This document shows, piece after piece, positions 3,119 through 25,997 of a stretch of 64,000 nucleotides of DNA (position 1 is the stretch's first letter; each line of letters opens with the position of its first letter). Below the pieces are notes generated by a model that was given only the letters and a program-made list of their open reading frames with translations, made no database searches and was not told the origin of the DNA. The position numbers and the translations under genes are program-made. The stretch covers positions 2,232,001-2,296,000 of the forward strand of contig NZ_CP132976.1 in NCBI RefSeq assembly GCF_030864005.1, in the 5' to 3' direction. Source of the stretch: Achromobacter seleniivolatilans (GTDB lineage Bacteria; Pseudomonadota; Gammaproteobacteria; Burkholderiales; Burkholderiaceae_B).

Positions 3119-3739
3119 ATGATGAAACCCGCAGCACATCACCCTCCCCTTGCCATGGGCTGGCTGGCGCAAGCCCCGGCCATCCTGCCCGCCGCCCAAC
3201 GCCACTGGCTGTTCCGGCCGGGCGCGCTGACCGCTGGCCTGCGCCAGCTTGGCCACGTCCGCCTGCGCGTGCTGGCCGAATACGCCGATGGCGCGCCGTT
3301 GGACGAAGCCCAGGCCATGGGCATTGCGCCCGGATCGCCCGTCTGGATACGTGAAGTGCTGATGTCGGTGAACGGCGTGGACAGCGTGCCGGCGCGTAGC
3401 CTGACGCCGTTGCGCGCCTCGCATGGCGCCTGGCAGGGCATGCGCCGCCTCTTGACGCGGCCGCTGGCCGACATGCTGTATCACGACAGCACCGTCATCC
3501 GCTCGCCATTCGCGTGCCGCCGCCTGGCATCACCGGTGCCGTTTCACGCATCGGCGCACGGTGTCTTGCCGGCAGAACGCAGGGATCAGGACGGCAGCCG
3601 GATCTGGGCGCGCCGCTCGGTTTTCTGGCGCCAGGGCCAGCCGCTATTGGTAGCTGAGTGTTTTCTGCCCGGATTCTGGGACTTGATCAACGGCCAGCCC
3701 GTGCCGCCGCTGGTGCCGCATCAACGCACGGCGCGCTAA
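3119..3739 (+). CDS. ubiC: Chorismate--pyruvate lyase
   Basis: A 206-residue protein matching Ubi[17 protein letters not shown] lies near the N-terminus and [20 protein letters not shown] is the conserved central block of the chorismate lyase fold. Known reaction: chorismate to 4-hydroxybenzoate plus pyruvate, the first committed step of ubiquinone synthesis, in the cytoplasm. The start has two adjacent ATG codons (3119 and 3122), and a weak -10-like GCATAAT sits just upstream. It converges on the hypothetical gene at 3754 with only 14 bases between. Confidence 0.88.
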
Positions 3740-3753
3740 GCGCAGGGCTGCGG

Positions 3754-4251
3754 TCAGCACCCCATTTGCTTGCGGAACGTCACCAGGTAGCTCGCCTTTT
3801 CGTCGCTAGACAGTTTCTTTGTTGCTGCCTCGAACATCGGCCCGCCTGTGGCGCAGGCCGTTTGCATGGCCCGTTCCTGCTGGATGCCCTCGTAGTGGTG
3901 ATAGCACCGCATCAGCACCATGGCCAGCAGGCCAACCGCGAGCACGACGCCCCACGGATTTGGGCGCAATCTGGGCGCAGGCATTACCGCTTGCGGGGCA
4001 CGCGGAAGGTAAATTGCTTCAGCCGCCACCGTGGCAGTTGCCGCCGCGGTGGTTGCGGCCGTGGTGGTTGCGGCCGCAGCAGGCTCTGCACCCACAGGCG
4101 AGCCATACTTCACGAAAAATTCGGCGACACGCTCGACGCCGTAAGTACGCTCAGCCCGCGACCACCAATCCCCAGGCAGCAAGATGAAGTTCAGGCAATC
4201 TCCAATGCCATCCTGCGCCGGCAATCTGAAGGCATATCCTGGCGCCAGCAT
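3754..4251 (-). CDS. Hypothetical single-span membrane protein, possibly 5'-truncated
   Basis: A 165-residue frame I do not recognise. The N-terminal part (DGIGDCLNFILLPGDWWSRAERTYGVERVAEFF) looks globular. An Ala/Thr-rich linker (about 58-80) follows, then one hydrophobic span (NPWGVVLAVGLLAMVLMRCY, about 100-120) and a short polar tail ending in Cys. The proposed ATG sits exactly at the edge of the G-depleted tract, and the codon immediately before it is an in-frame TAG. The apparent start may therefore be an internal Met of a longer gene cut by that tract or by a sequence error. The coding call rests on the normal codon texture up to 4251. Confidence 0.6.
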   Translation of the reverse strand: MLAPGYAFRLPAQDGIGDCLNFILLPGDWWSRAERTYGVERVAEFFVKYGSPVGAEPAAAATTTAATTAAATATVAAEAIYLPRAPQAVMPAPRLRPNPWGVVLAVGLLAMVLMRCYHHYEGIQQERAMQTACATGGPMFEAATKKLSSDEKASYLVTFRKQMGC

Positions 4252-4864
4252 CTACACCTCATCCATCCAAACCTATACTCCCCCACCTAGCCCCATCCTA
4301 TAACCCCTTACCCAATACACTACCAATACTTCAACCTTCAATTCCCCAATTTCACCTCCTAAATCACCCTCCCACCCCCTTCCTCCACACCCCCCTTCCT
4401 CCCCCTCAACCTAATCTCCCACCACCACTCCATACTCCTATCAAACAACAACAATATACTACTTCACTCTAACACATACTCTAATCTAAAACCATAATCC
4501 ATTCACCTACTCCCTTTCATCTTCATCAACGCTCCGTCCATCATTATCACTCAATAATTAACATCTTACAACCCACACACTCTCATAAAAAACCCTATTC
4601 TCATAGACCAACAATATAACTCTTCATTCCTCAATCACTTATTCCTCCCCAACCCCTCCTTCCTCAACCACACAAATCCTAAACCCATACCTCTACAACT
4701 CAATTCACCCCCTCACAAACCACTTAACTAAACTTACTAATCCTCACTTTCCTTCATCCCTACCACCTTAATCAACCCCCCAAATAAATTTATTATAAAC
4801 CCCCCCCCCCCCACCCAACCCCCACTTTTTATTAAAAAATAAATCCACCCACCCCCAACAATTT
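4249..4864. other. G-depleted tract, four G in 616 bases, no coding frame
   Basis: Between the last G of the upstream gene (4248) and the G at 4865 the plus strand contains G only at 4290, 4531, 4536 and 4616. Five 60-base lines that I counted (300 bases) give 131 C, 88 A and 81 T. There is a run of 12 C at 4801-4812, flanked by AT-rich stretches. No frame of 60 codons or more exists on either strand. Both borders are abrupt, with ordinary high-GC coding sequence on each side. The minus strand is almost free of C and has many G runs. An assembly or base-calling artefact is the leading explanation; a genuine low-complexity insertion is the alternative. Confidence 0.95.
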
Positions 4865-4902
4865 GCGCTTTGCTGCGCAGGCAAACGACTGGAACTGGCG
4901 AG

Positions 4903-6606
4903 CTACGCCATCAGCCATTCGATCCGGTTACGGCCCAGTTGCTTGGCGTTATAAAGCGCCTGGTCGCTGCGGCCCAACGCCAGTTCTGCATCCGCGTCCA
5001 GCGTGTGCATCGTAGCGATGCCTATGCTGACGGTCAGCGGAATACGCCGCCCCGCCGCAGAAAATGGCGCATCCGCAATGCGCCGCTGAACGCCGCGGGC
5101 AAACTGATGGGCGTCTTCAATGCCGGCATCCGGCAGCACGATGGCGAACTCTTCGCCCCCGATGCGCCCTACCAGATCGATCTCGCGCAATTGCGCGCGC
5201 AGCGTGTTCGCAAAATGCTGAAGCACGCCGTCGCCTATCGCGTGGCCCCAGGTGTCGTTGATGGATTTGAAGTGGTCAAGATCGCACATCAGCACCGCCG
5301 AATGGCGATTGCCTTCGCGCTTTAAGCGGGCCAGTTCGGCCGCGATGCGCGACATGAAATGGCGGCGGTTGGGCAGCATCGTCAAGGCGTCGGTGACGGC
5401 CAGTTCCAGCAGTTCGAAATCAGCGCGCTTGCGGTCGGTAATGTCAGTGACAAAGCCATGCCAGACCACTGAGCCGTCGGCGGCGCGGCGCGGGCTGGCG
5501 TCGCCACGGCGCCAGCGCAGGCCTTGCAGGGGCAGGCAGACGCGAAACTCCAGCTGCCAGGGTGATTGTTCCAGGGTGGCAACGCGCAATGACTCGCGAT
5601 AGGCCGTCAAATCGTCGGCGTGAACCCGGTGTTCAATCGCCAGGGTGCTGGCTTGCACATCGTTCGCGGTCAGTTCGAACATGTCCCAGATGCCCGCGCT
5701 GACGTAGGAAAAGCGCGCTCCGCCCTCGGGAAGCGCAATGCACTGGAAAACCAGGCCGGGCACGGCGTCAGTCAGGTTCACGACCAGATCGGCCGTCTGT
5801 TGCACGCGTTGCGCCATGGCGCGCAGGGCGCTGATGTCGGTGGTAGTGCCCATCATGCGCAAGGCACGGCCGGATTCATCGCGGCTGACGACCTTGCCCC
5901 GGCTGCAAATCCATTTGTAGCTGCCGTCCTTGCAGCGGATGCGGTGCTCGACCTCGTAACTCTCGGTCTTGCCGTCAAAATGGGCCTGCATTGATTCGCG
6001 CACATAAGCGGCGTCATCAGGATGCAAACGCGAATAGGCTTCTTCGATGCGAGTGGACAGTTCGTCTTCGCTATAACCCAGCAGCGCCTTCCAGCCGGGC
6101 GAGTAGCGGATTTCGCCTGTCACCACGTTGCGGTCCCAGACGCCTGTGCCGCTGCCGGCAATTGCCAGGGACAATTTGCGCGCTTCGTCACGCCAACCGT
6201 CTTCGCCTGCCCGGTCCAAGGCCATCGCCTGGCGCTTTTCGATGGCCGTGGCGGCCAGGGCGGCGAAATCATGGAGCGCCCGCCTGTCGCCATCATCAAA
6301 GCCCCGCTCTTGACTGTGCAGAAGACGAAAAGCGCCTAATTGCCGGCCGTCGCGGGCGCGCAACGGACACTCGGCCACAAAGGGAAATGCGGTGACGGCT
6401 GTGTCTATAGCCAGGTCGCCCGCTTGAGCCTGCCACACGCCATCGGCATCAATGCAAGCGACCCGCACGATATCCACGCCGAAATAACGTCTTGCCAGAC
6501 GCGCCAGCCTATCTAAGGGGCCGTCCTGATCCAGCAGGCAGTCAGAAGAAATATCCGGACTATCCGTTGGCGCAGGAGCAGAGGGAACATCACCTGAAGC
6601 GGGCAT
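4903..6606 (-). CDS. Diguanylate cyclase with GAF and two PAS domains
   Basis: A 567-residue cytoplasmic signalling protein with no membrane spans. The order is GAF-like domain (about 25-140), PAS 1 with PAC (about 148-260; GVWDRNVVTGEIRYSPGWKA), a divergent PAS 2 (about 275-395), then GGDEF domain (about 400-567; TDALTMLPNRRHF, DLDHFKSINDTWGH). The active-site loop is GGEEF at 483-487, a functional variant of GGDEF. The inhibitory RxxD site is present (REID, 474-477, five residues before the loop), so product inhibition by c-di-GMP is expected. Known reaction: 2 GTP to c-di-GMP. The 3' end lies about 40 bases from the G-depleted tract, and no EAL domain is present. Confidence 0.93.
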   Translation of the reverse strand: MPASGDVPSAPAPTDSPDISSDCLLDQDGPLDRLARLARRYFGVDIVRVACIDADGVWQAQAGDLAIDTAVTAFPFVAECPLRARDGRQLGAFRLLHSQERGFDDGDRRALHDFAALAATAIEKRQAMALDRAGEDGWRDEARKLSLAIAGSGTGVWDRNVVTGEIRYSPGWKALLGYSEDELSTRIEEAYSRLHPDDAAYVRESMQAHFDGKTESYEVEHRIRCKDGSYKWICSRGKVVSRDESGRALRMMGTTTDISALRAMAQRVQQTADLVVNLTDAVPGLVFQCIALPEGGARFSYVSAGIWDMFELTANDVQASTLAIEHRVHADDLTAYRESLRVATLEQSPWQLEFRVCLPLQGLRWRRGDASPRRAADGSVVWHGFVTDITDRKRADFELLELAVTDALTMLPNRRHFMSRIAAELARLKREGNRHSAVLMCDLDHFKSINDTWGHAIGDGVLQHFANTLRAQLREIDLVGRIGGEEFAIVLPDAGIEDAHQFARGVQRRIADAPFSAAGRRIPLTVSIGIATMHTLDADAELALGRSDQALYNAKQLGRNRIEWLMA

Positions 6607-25553: not shown

Positions 25554-25997
25554 ATGCCCTTGTCCTTCCGCCCTGCTCTGCCCGCCGCGCCTGCGGTGTT
25601 TCGCGTTATTGCCGTATTGGGGCTTGCGGCCGGACTGGGCGTGTGGGCTTCGGTGCTGCTGGCGCCGCGTCCGGGCGCGCTGCCGCCTGCTGTCTCAGCA
25701 GCCGCGCCGCGCGCAGCCGACAACACGCCGGTGGCATTGTGGTTTGGCAAGGATGAGGTGATGCGCACGCAGATTTCGGTGCTGGGCCTGATTGCGGCCG
25801 GTCCCGATGGCGCCGCCGTGCTTAGTGTGGACGGCGGCCCGCCCCTGGCGTATCGCGCGGGCGGTGAAGTTGCACCCGGCATCGTGCTGCGCGAAATCGC
25901 CGCAGACGCCGTGACGGTGGAACAGGGGGGAAGATTGAATCGGCTGGCAACGCCCGCGGCGTTGGACGCGCCGGGGGGCATTACACAGGTACCTTGA
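25554..25997 (+). CDS. gspC: Type II secretion protein C, short form without PDZ domain
   Basis: A 147-residue protein with one N-terminal span (FRVIAVLGLAAGLGVWASVLL) and a periplasmic homology-region-like segment (VALWFGKDEVMRTQISVLGLIAAGPDGAAVLSVDGGPPLAYRAGGEVAPGIVLREIAADAVTVEQGGRLNRL). Full-length GspC proteins are near 270 residues because of a PDZ or coiled-coil end, which is absent here. The start at 25554 places the span right after a short basic N-terminus. It is separated from gspG by about 1.5 kb of unrelated genes. Known role: linking the inner-membrane platform to the secretin. Confidence 0.82.
   Translation: MPLSFRPALPAAPAVFRVIAVLGLAAGLGVWASVLLAPRPGALPPAVSAAAPRAADNTPVALWFGKDEVMRTQISVLGLIAAGPDGAAVLSVDGGPPLAYRAGGEVAPGIVLREIAADAVTVEQGGRLNRLATPAALDAPGGITQVP

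Follow-up and report, generated by a model that had tools for sequence, protein, structure and literature searches.

Composition and borders of the tract

Within the 64,000-nucleotide stretch of Achromobacter seleniivolatilans DNA that was analyzed (the window), a tract almost free of G lies between a chorismate-lyase family gene and the gene of a PAS/GGDEF diguanylate cyclase, where it overlaps the start of a short open reading frame, ORF165 (Table 1). By direct count the 616 nt comprise 262 C, 195 A, 155 T and 4 G, i.e. 42.5% C, 31.7% A, 25.2% T and 0.6% G, while G accounts for 30.3% of the bases in the window overall. The binomial chance of finding at most four G in 616 positions at the G frequency of the window is about 10^-88. 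Elsewhere in the window, G-free runs reach at most 21 nt, and no second G-free or C-free run of at least 70 nt was detected in 2,061,774 bases, which is 30% of the strain's own 6,862,680-base genome. The bases flanking the tract, 4248 and 4865, are both G, so the borders are abrupt, and stops occur in all six frames. An earlier note on this DNA had described an almost G-free tract of 616 bases with abrupt borders and no coding frame, and had judged a pure G-to-A process not to fit; the counts and the composition of the tract bear this out. Three of the G positions given there (4290, 4531 and 4536) were right, but the fourth is 4606 instead of 4616, and the run described as C12 has 13 bases.

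Table 1. Coordinates of the G-poor tract, its parts and its neighbours
Feature	Position	Strand	Basis
Left-hand neighbour, a gene of the chorismate-lyase family; DNA homology with relatives stops near 3735-3743	3119..3739	+	comparison with relatives
ORF165, 5'-truncated phrog_9800 relative; residue 1 at family-alignment column 129	3754..4251	-	profile match, alignment
G-free tract (616 nt, 4 G; C-free on minus strand)	4249..4864	+	base count
Retained G	4290; others 4531, 4536, 4606	+	base count
Random-like part, bases drawn almost independently from A, C and T; self-transition 0.326	4249..4774	+	entropy tests (on 4249-4778), change point
Run-rich part; self-transition 0.633	4775..4864	+	change-point analysis
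C13 run (G13 on minus strand)	4800..4812	+	base count
Ordinary linker, 38 nt, tract to end of GGDEF gene	4865..4902		sequence
Gene of a PAS/GGDEF diguanylate cyclase; DNA homology with relatives stops near 4914-4919	4903..6606	-	comparison with relatives

With regard to the potential for G4 formation on the minus strand, which had also been proposed, four runs of at least three G with G-free loops were not found; by inspection, the arrangement G5-TT-G3-T-G13 qualifies as G4 only when the G13 run is split. A perfect TATAAT was noticed by inspection on the minus strand (4797-4792), closely 3' of the G13 run (interval 4792-4812). With its homopolymer next to a -10 box, the arrangement resembles the fim promoters of Bordetella, which are phase-variable through poly-C. 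The TATAAT motif was absent from the output of the promoter scan, which gave three promoter-like sites versus 0.8 in shuffles; terminator-like sites numbered one versus 1.1. No match to known RNA families was obtained between 3000 and 7000. Elsewhere in the window, 142 bases (25555-25696) are very poor in A, with A-free runs of 53 and 62, a skew milder than that of the tract.

Neighbouring genes and the variable junction

The tract opens with the three bases that form the ATG of ORF165. A search of 5.8 billion proteins with the sequence of ORF165 itself retrieved only ORF165 among 880 candidates, and by its own sequence the protein had no counterpart in 40 relatives. One weak plasmid match together with a match in PHROGs led to the family phrog_9800, a hypothetical protein of 272 aa from Salmonella, Pectobacterium and Brenneria. 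The PHROGs match starts at profile position 127 (127-176, E 3.2e-7). When 15 of the 19 family proteins found were aligned (P0005, P0010, P0011 and P0020 were omitted), the first 128 alignment columns were present in all 15 relatives and absent from ORF165, whose identity to the family is 34% on average over its first 54 columns and 21% overall. ORF165 is collinear with the C-terminal ~150 residues of the family, but it comprises only this part of the full-length protein. The alignment suggests that the tract now occupies the place of a missing first part of the gene, of about 125 codons. ORF165 was detected in one of 43 genomes of the genus and in one of 399 genomes of the order, both times the strain's own. 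It is a distant phrog_9800 relative outside the Enterobacterales. One Salmonella member of the family (L218, OX345322.1, 2620-3438), which is absent from the gene table of its record, lies upstream of umuD/umuC-like genes.

The interval between the lyase and GGDEF genes (3740-4902) is a variable junction whose content and length differ among the genomes of the genus. The two genes are adjacent in G049 (49 nt); in G003, about 800 nt containing a single long reading frame lie between them. The distance is about 14 kb in G017 and G050, and in G005 and G009 it reaches about 21 kb and about 290 kb, respectively, while in G014, G052 and G053 the GGDEF gene is missing between the lyase gene and the next shared gene. 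An ortholog of the tract-bearing interval was not found in the relatives of the genus examined, so that the comparison of syntenic intervals recommended in the earlier note returned a variable junction and no counterpart. At the right side, the last residues of the GGDEF protein differ from those of relatives because the DNA homology ends within the gene, and rewriting may have affected this side of the junction as well. The protein ends with ...IEWLMA, while many relatives have a tail of about eight residues of the SAPSVFSR type (4903-4920).

Occurrence of the tract in other genomes

Among 300 genomes of the order, similarity search detected the full-length tract in a single one, which was its own. 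Matches at E values up to 10 were obtained in 272 of the 300 genomes; all except that to the own genome reached at most 41 bits and were taken as chance. A second copy in the own genome was not found. Among 72,556 plasmid records two matches of 31 nt and nothing longer were detected, 50,697 phage records gave no match, and one 25-mer of the tract was absent from IMG/VR. No comparable tract was seen around the GGDEF gene in 29 loci of the genus (L003-L031, with up to 1.5 kb per side). The same tract, which the earlier note had advised to seek in related strains, was thus not encountered in 43 genomes of the genus and 300 of the order apart from its own.

Order of bases inside the tract

The order of bases from 4249 to 4778 is random-like, yet the tract has a weak three-base phase and a run-rich end. 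Conditional entropies of 4249-4778 lie within 1.13 sd of shuffles, the base composition stays even from one end of the tract to the other (p 0.45), and the longest internal repeat, 12 nt, equals chance expectation. A change point was located at 4774 with a log-likelihood gain of 15.0, the last 90 nt not being random-like. Three-base periodicity was weak in the base-by-phase test (p 0.018, 0.019 and 0.014; 0.007 for the first 530 nt). The best coding-phase model gained 5.56 nats, which was equalled in 0.75% of 400 shuffles, in a frame antisense to that of ORF165; ORF165's own frame gained 0.87 nats. Lag-1 mutual information did not discriminate, as 16% of masked ordinary windows were as low as the tract. 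RNA of the plus strand is almost unstructured (-0.8 kcal/mol), and RNA of the minus strand folds no better than shuffles.

Origin of the tract

We tentatively prefer, among the explanations considered, that the tract is untemplated random DNA from a polymerase refusing dGTP, which was captured at a break and replaced the 5' part of a gene. With somewhat greater reserve, it may be regarded as a chromosomal fossil of template-free synthesis, in which several hundred new bases written by a G-refusing polymerase became fixed at a repaired break. We place captured untemplated DNA slightly ahead of an assembly artefact, which is nearly as likely. In a first step, such a polymerase, possibly a reverse transcriptase of the Class 1 UG/Abi type, would make a plus strand of several hundred bases in the 5'->3' direction without a template. 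A break would then occur in the gene of ORF165 near its 125th codon and behind the GGDEF gene, with loss of the intervening DNA; the polymer would serve as filler, its second strand would be copied and both ends would be joined in a Ku-dependent manner. The polymerase gene may have been lost later, or may have acted from a phage or plasmid, and the run-rich last 90 nt could represent a stuttering phase at one end of synthesis. The present state consists of two sharp borders, a headless open reading frame and no full-length match elsewhere in the collections searched. The four G fit a few later A-to-G or C-to-G changes, and the event would therefore be recent; so small a number would mean either that the event is recent on the mutational scale or that the tract is under strong constraint.

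Features of end joining are present at the locus, namely the lack of long microhomology and an apparent loss of flanking DNA, ORF165 being without the head of its family. Over the 20 nt next to each border, the repeat common to both joins does not exceed 5 nt, and the genome contains a Ku gene (E 4.2e-46), as end joining would want. With regard to the putative writer, no RVT_1 reverse transcriptase was detected in the strain's own genome, while RVT_1 matches occurred in 16 of 43 genomes of the genus. Eight of these reverse transcriptases, taken from 33 listed RVT_1 places, were scanned against PADLOC; one was Drt4/Drt6-like (G005), two were Drt1a-like (G002 and G043, with reading frames cut by the ends of the loci), two Drt8-like and three of the retron type. 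For the Drt8-like enzymes (L230 and L231, in G058 and G006), the accessible part of the literature describes the mechanism of DRT8 as not yet established. Against capture it has to be considered that RVT_1 is lacking in the genome at present, that integration requires second-strand synthesis, that the last 90 nt are not random-like and that the weak three-base periodicity (p 0.007-0.019) is unexpected of a random polymer.

Should the tract instead be an artefact, the deposited consensus would be wrong over the interval and the organism would have ordinary DNA there, a possibility hardly weaker than that of captured DNA. The tract is present in one assembly only, the accessible portions of the literature yielded nothing relevant on G-free tracts in bacterial chromosomes and hence no natural precedent, and its left border lies inside a gene that is longer in relatives, so that the missing 5' part might be present in the true sequence. 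On the other hand, the assembly has two contigs, is rated 100% complete and is apparently finished; the tract lies far from the ends within a contig of 6,676,907 bases, and nothing similar was seen in 2.06 Mb of the same genome. Moreover, the 165-aa product beginning at the tract border is contained in the protein collection, assigned to a contig of this length, which places the tract in the public record, beyond the window alone. We know of no ordinary error process that strips G alone over 616 nt with sharp borders. Of the two options named in the earlier note, a striking artefact and an extreme three-letter insertion, the insertion is favoured here, joined to a truncated gene.

Less likely origins, including ordinary DNA with G lost or replaced

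The earlier note had suggested from its counts that G calls were lost from ordinary DNA. In the form considered here, nearly all plus-strand G of the 5' part of ORF165's gene and of the DNA upstream would have been replaced in situ by A, C and T, for example by damage during exposure of one strand or by copying without dGTP. We regard this as unlikely. The bulk composition of the tract does fit random replacement, since ordinary windows in which G was substituted average A.289, C.418 and T.292, and the weak three-base phase, which is in the register of ORF165, also agrees with it (P 0.0075 by shuffling). In addition, an anchored C-blind extension from ORF165 into the tract gave p 0.065, and in a profile search reading through stops the ORF165 match extended slightly into the tract, by 26 positions, with an increase from 31.2 to 32.3 bits. 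By contrast, the G-blind profile, the codon structure and the search for the missing gene part spoke against it.

A G-blind profile of 4252-4531, scoring 270 bits on itself, had best other matches of 21.4 bits in the 43 genus genomes and 23.8 bits in the 300 order genomes (G158, E 5.2e-5 for one genome), both taken as chance matches to C-rich DNA, in whole-genome searches whose stricter filters lose weak matches. As a positive control, a G-masked piece of the GGDEF gene recovered loci of the genus at 83-105 bits (among the matches listed, 35 of 49), these loci being 74-79% identical to the GGDEF gene and searched with nhmmer after fetching, while whole genomes were searched with Infernal for the tract. 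The adjoining piece, 4532-4811, gave nothing better than E 2.8 in the fetched loci. Alignment of the non-G positions to a homolog, which had been recommended as a check, consequently disclosed no source for 4252-4531 in these genomes.

The codon-based tests were directed at the coding part. When the missing 5' part was represented by a C-blind codon model, the tract scored 11.7, at the level of shuffles (mean 12.7, sd 1.8, 150 shuffles). In simulations with relatives lacking indels, 30 per identity level, this model exceeded 16 in 97%, 87% and 50% of the runs at 33%, 27% and 20% identity, respectively. An in-frame translation of the tract that seemed by eye to keep family residues found no support in the same model. 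The codon-joint z was -1.46 and -1.32 in the two frames of the ORF165 register and +1.25 in the best of six, while 300 masked real genes ranged from 0.2 to 5.6 (5-95%) and their antisense strands from 0.2 to 4.2. In a joint test, tract-like values appeared in 6 of 1500 shuffles versus about 1 of 1200 masked coding pieces. Furthermore, masked ORF165 prefers its sense frame, which the tract does not, favouring the antisense frame. A codon test assuming deletion of G gave 142 versus 136 in shuffles (sd 5, 60 shuffles), but simulated relatives of 33% identity reach just 144.5 in it. Replacement of coding DNA is disfavoured by these results, and would be conceivable above all if the missing part were very divergent.

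Improbable as well, and somewhat more so, is a selected G-free element such as a very long Rho-loading (rut-type) region or a C-free leader of ORF165. Rho prefers C-rich and unstructured RNA, and the plus-strand RNA of the tract, being C-rich, G-poor and almost without structure, has features of the rut type. The tract is situated downstream of a plus-strand gene and faces two minus-strand genes, so a rut-type region would stop antisense transcription coming from the chorismate-lyase side. However, rut sites are far shorter than the tract, the element was not found in the relatives searched, and it is implausible that selection kept G away from about 600 sites while no motif is conserved. The least probable origin is foreign or synthetic three-letter DNA, either a G-less cassette made by design or a mobile element that has not been sequenced, for although laboratories do possess G-less cassettes and three-letter codes and the adjoining ORF165 is foreign to the genus too, it is opposed by the border repeats of at most 5 nt and by the results from plasmids (matches of at most 31 nt), phages and IMG/VR.

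The observation itself stands, the reading as lost G is mostly not supported, and captured DNA and an artefact remain the main alternatives. Defence-associated reverse transcriptases make random DNA in cells, and a report of such a polymer integrated and fixed in a chromosome was not found in the accessible portions of the literature. A real tract would mean that long sequence can be acquired by bacteria without a template, and the base bias kept in the chromosome would point to the writing enzyme; an artefact would be a caution concerning a reference genome that is apparently finished.

Comparison with known systems

For captured untemplated DNA, several systems offer partial parallels. The variable region of diversity-generating retroelements shows a base-specific saturation of a gene stretch, a trait that the tract would share. 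In these elements, however, adenines are changed, a template copy is kept and a reverse transcriptase is required, and the genome yielded neither RVT_1 nor another copy of the tract. The inserts left at junctions by TdT, polymerase theta and bacterial Ku/LigD are untemplated break filler, and the tract, too, adjoins a truncated gene without long microhomology. To our knowledge, end-joining insertions are short (a few bases) and contain G, so that 616 nt would be far beyond them.

Closer in the mode of synthesis are reverse transcriptases of the defence-associated and abortive-infection types, as far as the accessible parts of the reports describe them. The product of DRT3b is poly(dCdA), dTTP and dGTP being excluded (PMC13174585), DRT1 forms A-rich semirandom adducts (PMC13275509), and the product of DRT4 is random single-stranded DNA (PMC13213688). 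DRT3b and DRT1 synthesize DNA that is template-free, protein-primed and strongly biased in its bases, and the tract shares a strong base bias; on the other hand, neither the alternating CA of DRT3b nor the A-rich DNA of DRT1 resembles its mixture of A, C and T. AbiK uses all four bases, whereas AbiA extends with dATP, dCTP and less dTTP and without dGTP, its sequenced products consisting almost only of A and C with an average length of ~100 nt in vitro (PMC11077055). In the parts of these reports that were accessible, the exact A/C/T mixture of the tract is not reported for AbiA, AbiK, DRT3b, DRT1 or DRT4. Both the T content of the tract, compared to the nearly T-free products of AbiA, and its length of 616 nt, compared to their average, count against capture of a polymer of exactly this kind. 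The AbiA product is furthermore single-stranded and linked to protein, while the tract is chromosomal and lies in a genome without RVT_1. According to the accessible descriptions, this abortive-infection reverse transcriptase of Lactococcus makes a template-free polymer without G, and a random order is reported for Abi products; the tract is likewise poor in G, and its order is random-like from 4249 to 4778, with the weak three-base phase and the run-rich end as exceptions.
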